Shown here: positions 29,297 to 32,127 of the stretch, one piece after another
How positions within the stretch are numbered: position 1 is the first letter of the stretch
Layout: every line of letters begins with the position of its first letter
Origin: Megamonas funiformis
GTDB lineage: Bacteria; Bacillota; Negativicutes; Selenomonadales; Selenomonadaceae
NCBI RefSeq assembly: GCF_010669225.1
Contig: NZ_CP048627.1
Coordinates: 2,183,292-2,247,291 of the forward strand
DNA: 64,000 nucleotides
Direction of reading: 5' to 3'
The notes under the pieces: generated by a model
What the model saw: the letters and a program-made list of their open reading frames with translations, nothing else
What the model was told of the DNA's origin: nothing
Databases searched by the model: none
Made by a program: the position numbers and the translations under genes

Positions 29297-29896
29297 TTAT
29301 TTTTTCAATACGGCAATTAATTCCTCATCAGAAACTGTAGCTGTTCCCATTTTACGTACAGCAATACCAGAAGCAAAATTAGAAAGTTCAGCTGCTTGAC
29401 TTGGCATCGCACCTGTAGCTAATGCTGTGATAAAGGTAGCAACACATGTATCACCTGCTCCCGATACATCAAATACTTCTGATTTATCAGATACTGGGAT
29501 ATTATGCACATCTCCATTTGCTTCAAATAAAGTCATACCTTTTTCGCCACGTGTAACTAAAATTCCCTTTGCTTGCATTTTTACTAAAAATTCCTGTGCC
29601 GCTTTATATAAAATTTCCTCATTATCTATTTTATAGCCTACAGCACTGGCTAATTCTGCATCATTTTGTTTTACATAATCAGTACCTACAAAATTGAAAA
29701 TAGCATATCGAGAATCTATTATTGATGGTATATCATATTCTTTACTTAAAGATAAAATTAAATCACGAATTTTAGGTGTAATTGTTCCACTGCCATAATC
29801 GCTCATTACTACACCTTGCATCTGTGGCATGACCATTTGAATGTAATTCATCAATTCTTTTTCATATACTTCACTGATAACTTCATTGCATTCTCT
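29297..29896 (-). CDS. hldE1: HldE-type heptose-7-phosphate kinase, 3' exon (C-terminal part)
   Basis: This is the C-terminal 199 codons of the ribokinase-family kinase that phosphorylates D-glycero-D-manno-heptose 7-phosphate at position 1. It holds 'QGVVMSDYGSG', 'ILVTRGEKGMTLFEANGD' and the catalytic/anion-hole loop 'VFDVSGAGDTCVATFITALA'. Its frame is open up to the IStron edge. Joined to codon 148 of the 5' exon it gives a 347-residue enzyme of normal size. On its own it lacks a plausible start at the boundary and lacks the N-terminal sugar-binding part. Its function therefore depends on splicing, or on a different intact gene elsewhere. Confidence 0.85.
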   Translation of the reverse strand, partial: RECNEVISEVYEKELMNYIQMVMPQMQGVVMSDYGSGTITPKIRDLILSLSKEYDIPSIIDSRYAIFNFVGTDYVKQNDAELASAVGYKIDNEEILYKAAQEFLVKMQAKGILVTRGEKGMTLFEANGDVHNIPVSDKSEVFDVSGAGDTCVATFITALATGAMPSQAAELSNFASGIAVRKMGTATVSDEELIAVLKK

Positions 29897-29990
29897 CTGA
29901 ACCTCCCACGACTAAAGTCGCGGGGTTCTCGGTCAAGTATTCTAACGAATACAGTATCTCCGAGCTATCCCCATAGTTCCTATGGTTCTT
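29897..29990 (-). ncRNA. IS605-type right end and putative omega RNA 3' region
   Basis: Downstream of tnpB lie stacked hairpins. CCATAG/CTATGG is at 29971-29985. GTATTC/GAATAC at 29937-29952 lies inside a CTCGG/CCGAG stem. The terminal hairpin CCC-CGACT/AGTCG-GGG is at 29905-29924, then 'ggttcag' to the edge. TnpB guide (omega) RNAs end in structures of this kind, with the guide copied from flanking DNA. Here the guide would be read from the hldE 3' exon. The 5' end of the RNA, probably inside tnpB, cannot be set from sequence. Confidence 0.55.
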
Positions 29991-30008
29991 GTATATGTTA
30001 TTTAAGAT

Positions 30009-31118
30009 TTATGCTATGTTTAATATTTTTAATCCTTCATTTCTAATATTTATAGCTGCATTTACATCTCTATCGTGATGTGTTTTACATTTAGGACAGT
30101 TCCATTTTCTAACATTTAAGTTTTTTACTTCTGTATTTTTATACCCACAAACATGACATAATTGACTTGAAGGATAAAATTTATCTATTTTGACAATAAT
30201 TTTGCCAAACCATTTGGCTTTATATGTTAGTTGTCTCATAAACTCTGACCAGCTGACATCAGCTATATTTCTTGCTAATTTATGATTTTTCATCATGTTT
30301 TCAACTTGCAAATCTTCAAGACAGATTACATCGTAATTTCTGATAAGTTGACATGATACTTGATGTAGTAAATTATGTCTTTGATTAGCAATTCTCTCAT
30401 GCAATTTAGCCACTTTTACTCTAGCCTTTTCCCAATTTGAACTTCCTTTTGTTTTTCGAGAAAGCTCTCTTTGGAGTTTAGCTAATCTAGTCAGTGATTT
30501 TTGCAAATATTTAGGATTGCTATATTTTACTGCATCTGAGGTTATGACAAAATCTTTTATTCCTAAATCTAAGCCAACATATTTATTCGTTTTGATAAAT
30601 TCAGGTTGAGGCAGGTCTGTACAACATAGTGCAATGTAATATTTTCCACTAGGAGTCTGCGATACTGTCGCACTTAAAATTCTACCTTCTATTTGGCGAT
30701 ATTTATCTCTTGTTTTAATCTTGCCTATTTTAGGTAGTTTTATTTTATTTCCTAAAAATACAATGTTGTTATTTGTCATATTTGTTTTGTACGATTTATA
30801 CCGATTCTTTTTAGATTTGAATTTAGGAAAGCCTACTTTTTGTCTGTTAAAAAAGTTTTTATAAGCTGTATCTAAATTCTTTAAAGCGTTTTGTAAAGAG
30901 GATTTATCTGGTTCTTTAAGCCACTTTTTTTCTTTTTTTAATTGAGTAAGCTCTTTTGAACATTCGTTATAACTTATAGTCTTCTTATTTTGTTCATATG
31001 CTTTAATTCTTCTATCTAAAAAGTAATTATATATAAAACGTACACAGCCAAAAGTTTTTTGAAGTAAACTTTCTTGTGTTTTATTAGGGTATATCCTAAA
31101 TTTATAAGCTTTTTCCAT
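30009..31118 (-). CDS. tnpB: TnpB RNA-guided nuclease (IS605/OrfB family)
   Basis: A 369-residue TnpB, full length. It starts '[20 protein letters not shown]' and has the N-terminal helical domain with '[12 protein letters not shown]'. The three RuvC acidic residues are in '[13 protein letters not shown]', '[12 protein letters not shown]' and '[11 protein letters not shown]'. A zinc ribbon with CxxC pairs ('CHVCG', 'CPKCK') lies between the last two. All key residues are present, so it should be an active omega-RNA-guided DNA nuclease that keeps the element at its site. The ATG at 31116-31118 is preferred to the GTG at 31127. It lies entirely inside the intron. Confidence 0.92.
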
Positions 31119-31361
31119 AATAAACACTTACTCTTTCTAATGAATAAACATATCTTCTGCCATATATTACTTCCATATTGTCACTCAATATAATCATGAC
31201 ATATCTATAGTAATATAACAAGTGTTTATATATTAACTGCTTATTTTAAATAATATATACAAGAACTCTAGGTTCTACTTTAGTCGTATTATGAGGTCTC
31301 GTTCATATAGAAACGCTACTTTCTATACAGTTCTCTTATGAACTTCCGTTACTTTCATAAC

Positions 31362-31683
31362 GGCACAGACTATATCTTATCTCTCAGCTTTACCTGTTAG
31401 AGTCTGTCCACTTCCTCAGTCAATCGCTTACTGAGTACTTCCCTCAAGAGGAATAGTCGTTGAACGTTCTCCTTTTCGGAGCTTCGCTGCTGATTGTCCA
31501 TTTTTCAACACTTAGGATTTAACCTTATGCTATATATCTGATTTTTTCTGCTTTCGCCACATTCACGTTTAACTTTATTTCATGTTTACGTTGTAGTTCA
31601 GATATCTTTAGGGTTTTCCAGCAATTCAAACAGTATTGGATAGCTCTTTGTCTATCTCTACGTACATATTTCTATATACGCTG
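31362..31683 (-). ncRNA. Group I intron catalytic core of the IStron
   Basis: Read on the minus strand, the four group I core elements appear in order. P is AATTGCTGGAAAACCC (31611-31626). Q is in GGACAATCAGCAGCGAAGCT (31480-31499). R is in GTTCAACGACTATTCC (31450-31465). S is AAGATATAGTCTG (31366-31378). The central GACTA of R pairs with TAGTC of S to form P7. The first intron bases contain GCTAT (IGS) that pairs with the exon end ATAGT (P1, U.G at the splice site). A P10 pairing is not evident. Splicing activity is inferred from structure. Confidence 0.85.
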
Positions 31684-32127
31684 ACTATTTTGTTCGCCTA
31701 ACTCATGATTTAAATCACAAGTGTGTGGCTCACAATAATCAATACGCACTACCTGTTGACTTACTGTAGCTCTACCACCTGCAATAACACGTGTCTTAGT
31801 AATAGTTTTGCGATTTTGATCACAAAACATACCTTCAGTATTTACATTATTTTCTTCTAATATTTGCTTTAAATTTAAAGCACCTTTATCTTCGCCTAAA
31901 ATACCTACAGCAAAAGCTTTTCCTCCCAATGTAGCTACATTATTAACTACATTAGCGGCACCGCCAGCCACTGTTTTTTCTTCTGACTCTATCAATACTA
32001 AAACTGGCGCTTCACGAGAAATACGAGAAATATCACCTTTTAAATATATATCAGCAATCATATCACCAATAATTAAAATGCGTTTTCCCTTAAATTTTTC
32101 TACAAAATCAATCAATTCCGGCTTCAT
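31684..32127 (-). CDS. hldE1: HldE-type heptose-7-phosphate kinase, 5' exon (N-terminal part)
   Basis: The first 148 codons of the kinase contain 'ILIIGDMIADIYLKGDISRI', the sugar-binding 'GGAANVVNNVATLGGKAF' and 'VSQQVVRIDYCEPHTC', clear RfaE/HldE signatures. The ATG follows 'aaaggtg'. Without splicing, ribosomes read three intron codons (Q-R-I) and stop at TAG, giving a 151-residue fragment without the GAGD catalytic loop. With splicing after 31684 the frame continues directly into the 3' exon. It follows lptD by about 24 bases in an lptD-hldE1-hldE2 operon. Confidence 0.88.

Follow-up and report, generated by a model that had tools for sequence, protein, structure and literature searches.

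A group A IStron in hldE of Megamonas funiformis with an antisense arm predicted to oppose its omega RNA fold to its splicing fold

Introduction

A 2014 survey described IStrons, their ends and the inverted-repeat (IR) stem that they carry, giving 6–10 bp for the stems of group A; it includes MfISt1, a group A IStron of Megamonas funiformis, which measures 1839 bp and carries a truncated ORF A and an ORF B (Tourasse 2014, PMC4227781). CdISt1 of Clostridioides difficile likewise belongs to group A, and several of its copies carry ORF A (PMC4227781). The TnpB of ISDra2 recognizes TTGAT as its target-adjacent motif (TAM) and takes its guide from the flank of the right end (Karvelis 2021, PMC8612924). 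In another IStron, the intron has already been reported to conflict with the guide RNA (Zedaveinyte 2024, Science eadm8189).

Here we analyzed a 64,000-nt stretch of the M. funiformis genome (the window), in which an element interrupts hldE, a sugar-kinase gene of this gut bacterium. Like MfISt1, the element joins a group I intron to an IS200/IS605 sequence with a truncated ORF A and an ORF B, follows a T-rich pentanucleotide and ends in TCAG, and its 1841 bp compare with 1839 bp; we take it to be MfISt1 itself or a sister of it, the two being likened by the published description. Unlike the stems in the MfISt1 survey, which predates omega RNAs, its long-range helix spans 20–30 bp and covers the guide RNA scaffold. 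With CdISt1 it shares, again by description, the group, the T-rich target and the TCAG end, and it differs from the copies of CdISt1 with ORF A. Its TnpB is homologous to that of ISDra2 over the whole length, and the TTGAT site and a predicted guide from the right-end flank are also common to both; ISDra2, in contrast, has no intron and has its own tnpA. As in the published case of conflict, a group I intron here would face a transposon-encoded guide RNA. Unlike that IStron, which is reportedly clostridial and of IS607 type (group B), the hldE element is of IS605 type with an ISDra2-like TnpB.

Results

The element in hldE is a group A IStron

The element and its host exons lie on the minus strand of the window:
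29897–31737, minus: IStron (group I intron and tnpB) inserted in hldE after TTGAT, 1841 bp
31738–31742, minus: TTGAT, the target site, end of the 5’ exon and expected TnpB TAM
31738–32127, minus: hldE 5’ exon
29297–29896, minus: hldE 3’ exon, running up to where the PfkB-domain ORF ends
31346–31685, minus: group I intron ribozyme core (RF00028, 69.8 bits, E 3.8e-17)
31681–31685, minus: internal guide sequence GUCAG, able to pair with UUGAU at the end of the 5’ exon
29897, minus: terminal G, the intron omega-G and the last scaffold base before the guide, in the TCAG end of IStrons

Five group I introns of this type and 20 TnpB matches were found in the genome itself. The five copies have identical ends, starting with TATTGT directly after TTGAT and ending in GGTTCAG, and in a sister genome of the same genus hldE is uninterrupted, giving an exact empty site with no gap at the insertion point. 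The element therefore starts at 31737, and TTGAT precedes all 17 copies in the two genomes (17/17). The initial annotation had placed ATAGT (31684–31688) before the target, which would imply another 5’ boundary; this motif falls within the intron, where it shares bases with the internal guide sequence, and was rejected as TAM in view of the 17 copies and the empty site. The RF00028 match came from an Rfam search limited to the element; the search of the whole window at the gathering threshold gave no match. The element is identified as a group A (IS200/IS605-type) IStron by an insertion sequence with tnpB that is fused downstream of a group I intron, by insertion after a pentanucleotide of the set TTGAT/ATTAT/TTTAT, by a TCAG end without target duplication, by the position of the insertion sequence after P9.2 and a GAACGA-type motif, here GAACGA directly before the first arm segment (see below), and by an IR stem around the ORF.

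When the two hldE exons are joined, the reading frame stays open across the junction (VVRID-RECNEV) and the PfkB domain is found on the joined protein. In 15 of the 17 insertions in the two genomes the frame on the same strand as the element stays open across the junction, with hosts that include genes for a cytidylate kinase, an OMP decarboxylase and a polyA-polymerase/tRNA-nucleotidyltransferase-like protein. These open frames fit working introns and are indirect evidence for splicing in cells. The internal guide sequence is GUCAG in elements at TTGAT sites, except for one copy with GUUAG (L119), and it is GUAAG in three relatives at apparent TTTAT sites. The IStrons at apparent TTTAT sites include one without any ORF (L288) and two with a different TnpB lineage (L289 and L292).

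Group I introns require a terminal G. The TCAG end of IStrons fits this requirement: it is found in none of 42 intron-less relatives, 39 of which end in CAA or CAC while the terminal bases of the other three aligned unclearly. A strict rule that TCAG marks an intron is broken by one intron-less locus with TCAG (L345). There, an IscB gene with a HEARO RNA (~1300–2807, reverse complement) separates the host gene from a right end of TnpB type; this IscB/HEARO element appears to have been inserted into an IStron.

Most of tnpB is missing from three copies in the sister genome (1115, 1115 and 835 bp), which have kept the intron, the arm and the omega RNA. Since two of them carry the same deletion in different host genes, movement with proteins supplied in trans is suggested.

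TnpB is conserved and tnpA is a remnant

Two coding regions were identified between the ribozyme and the right end:
30009–31118, minus: tnpB, 369 aa, RNA-guided nuclease of ISDra2 type
31132–31176, minus: N-terminal remnant of tnpA (beginning MEVIYGRRYVYSLE), read from the sequence and resembling the tnpA start of L287

All three OrfB/TnpB Pfam domains are present, and the protein matches the ISDra2 TnpB structures over its full length (PDB 8bf8/8ex9, E 7e-114). The RuvC residues D184, E268 and D351 and the zinc ribbon C321/C324/C341/C344 are as in ISDra2 TnpB; both features had been noticed before, and the protein looks intact. The median dN/dS of tnpB is ~0.12 (13 intact copies, 78 pairs), indicating purifying selection. 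Domains, structural match, catalytic and zinc-binding residues and dN/dS together support a working protein. The search for an intact Y1 tnpA in the element returned only the remnant, which sets it apart from an autonomous IS200/IS605 element, and tnpA genes are present elsewhere in the genome. At another locus of this genome, an IS605 element lacking an intron (L047) carries tnpA, an omega RNA and a related TnpB that is 45% identical.

The omega RNA scaffold ends at the 3’ splice site

The right end contains the predicted guide RNA:
29897–30005, minus: omega RNA scaffold ending in TTCAG (covariance model R1, 124 bits; covariation)
29881–29896, minus: predicted 16-nt guide, the start of the hldE 3’ exon (AGAGAATGCAATGAAG), its length taken from ISDra2 (PMC8612924)

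On the minus strand the scaffold folds into the hairpins HP1 (29985–29971), HP2 (29964–29928) and HP3, the right-end hairpin (29924–29905), followed by GGTTCAG to 29897. Across 12 divergent elements 95% of cells are paired in this fold and 49 cells are compensatory, compared with 16.5 in shuffled alignments, which rules out chance hairpins; in HP2, which lies outside both the TnpA end and the long-range helix described below, every pair has changed on both strands. The stacked hairpins that the initial annotation had seen are thus borne out. Its placement of an omega RNA at the intron 3’ splice site also agrees with sequence, homology and covariation, as the scaffold stops exactly where TTCAG meets the exon. 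Its interval, 29897–30130, was right at 29897; the 30130 end reaches into tnpB coding sequence, and the scaffold occupies ~29897–30005, or would extend to roughly 30030 by analogy with ISDra2. The same three lines of evidence favor the hldE 3’ exon as the guide that had been predicted.

A covariance model of the 3’ end, built from ten IStron right ends, matches directly behind most TnpB relatives tested, whether or not they have an intron. Because the scaffold recurs behind intron-less tnpB genes, it is a part of the TnpB system and not of the intron. At its right end the element carries a structured RNA that is conserved and stops at the flank.

An antisense arm at the left end is predicted to pair with the scaffold

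Directly downstream of the ribozyme lies a three-part arm (31298–31247), which is complementary to the terminal GAGGUU, the right-end hairpin and the 5’ part of the scaffold with one HP1 strand:
31293–31298, minus: arm a (GACCUC), pairing with 29905–29900 beside the 3’ splice site (duplex and cofold predictions)
31277–31287, minus: arm b (ACGACUAAAGU), pairing with 29918–29908 of the right-end hairpin, 11/11 pairs
31247–31272, minus: arm c, pairing with 30005–29979, including the 5’ strand of HP1

The overlap between intron and omega RNA is, as judged from these complementarities, larger than the splice-site junction, and the arm can pair with most of the scaffold. When arms were permuted among elements, cognate arm c pairing reached −315.7 kcal/mol vs −247.5 kcal/mol (sd 11.7), with none of 200000 permutations as strong, and for arms a and b together 7 of 200000 were; two elements have weaker cognate arms (L104 and L175). 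The covariation score of the long-range helix, based on column counts in a plain alignment, exceeded all 500 shuffles. In all 14 elements compared with shuffled arms, including two of another TnpB lineage, z ranged from −5.1 to −18.4, and the arm was also found in a copy kept out of the earlier tests (L351). The mean z of arm pairing was −4.6 in 11 IStrons vs 0.09 in 42 relatives classed as intron-less by a motif scan, with Rfam added on some loci (p 1.3e-5), and arm c is absent from these 42.

The predicted folds of the RNA with and without the arm are nearly exclusive. In the full-length RNA the pairing probability is 0.0 for HP1, 0.002 for HP3 and 0.96–0.99 for the long-range helix; without the arm, HP1 rises to 0.96–0.97 and HP3 to 0.96–0.98. 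These figures describe the equilibrium thermodynamics of a 1.9-kb RNA, leaving aside co-transcriptional folding, translation and TnpB.

Discussion

The observations are probably best explained by a choice, driven by the left-end arm, between a splicing fold and an omega fold in a group A IStron. The host hldE transcript would read through the element, and in this full-length RNA the left-end arm and the right end would form the long helix, closing the loop that holds tnpB and bringing the 3’ splice site, after UUCAG, beside the ribozyme. The intron would then splice and restore the hldE mRNA with the predicted junction of TTGAT and AGAGAATGC. Because the helix uses the same bases as the scaffold, namely the 5’ strand of HP1, the right-end hairpin and the terminal GGUU, an RNA able to splice could not simultaneously adopt the omega fold. 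An RNA without the arm, whether it starts internally, is processed at its 5’ end or is captured by TnpB, would take up the omega fold with the hldE 3’ exon as its guide. A scan for an internal promoter gave no more matches than shuffled sequences and no clear candidate. TnpB would cut where TTGAT is followed by the guide sequence, as in the empty hldE site, and so promote copying of the element back into that site. We infer that splicing and guide production compete in cells, as the initial annotation had anticipated.

The long-range helix could also serve passively, as a stem whose closing brings the 3’ splice site into place, its overlap with the omega RNA being forced by position and guide output being unregulated. 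We consider this quite conceivable, if somewhat short of probable: all IStrons were described as having an IR stem that closes the ORF loop (PMC4227781), and the ORF-less L288 keeps a short stem of arms a and b where HP1 and HP2 are missing, so that the stem there serves the intron alone. However, the pairing of arm c exceeds what closure needs and covers HP1, and the predicted exclusivity of the folds is near total. Rather more doubtful is that splicing and guide production compete and the outcome is decided by TnpB binding to the nascent scaffold. Local omega hairpins can form fast, and a conflict of this kind has been reported for another IStron (Zedaveinyte 2024), yet this leaves the covarying, IStron-specific arm unexplained.

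Two further explanations fare worse. That the inverted repeat acts on DNA during single-strand transposition is very unlikely: IS200/IS605 elements do move as single-stranded DNA (PMC8612924), but the repeat is absent from members of this family that have no intron. It is about as improbable that TnpB and its omega RNA are dead baggage whose hairpins are kept as TnpA ends and intron parts. Such a history would suit the remnant tnpA and the copies without most of tnpB, but it is at odds with the dN/dS over 78 pairs and with the both-side changes in HP2.

Group A IStrons in general may carry, in the 3’ part of the intron, a sequence antisense to their own omega RNA as a built-in switch, by which transcripts from the host promoter that carry the arm splice and arm-less ones become guide RNA, with the terminal G and compensating changes in the arm marking each fusion of intron and insertion sequence. 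We offer this generalization tentatively, as possible rather than likely. The general conflict between splicing and guide is already known, and the antisense-arm switch would be the new part. With the present analysis, the reported conflict reaches IStrons of IS605 type that carry an ISDra2-like TnpB. The target motif for any assay is corrected to TTGAT, and the bases specified here are those at which mutations are expected to tip the element between restoring its host gene and spreading.

Weak Rfam matches to RF02841 (Ref70, an Enterococcus sRNA) were seen at 29872–29991 of the window and at five other loci (L091, L092, L097, L099 and L345). As they fall exactly on TnpB right ends, Ref70 is probably an omega RNA.
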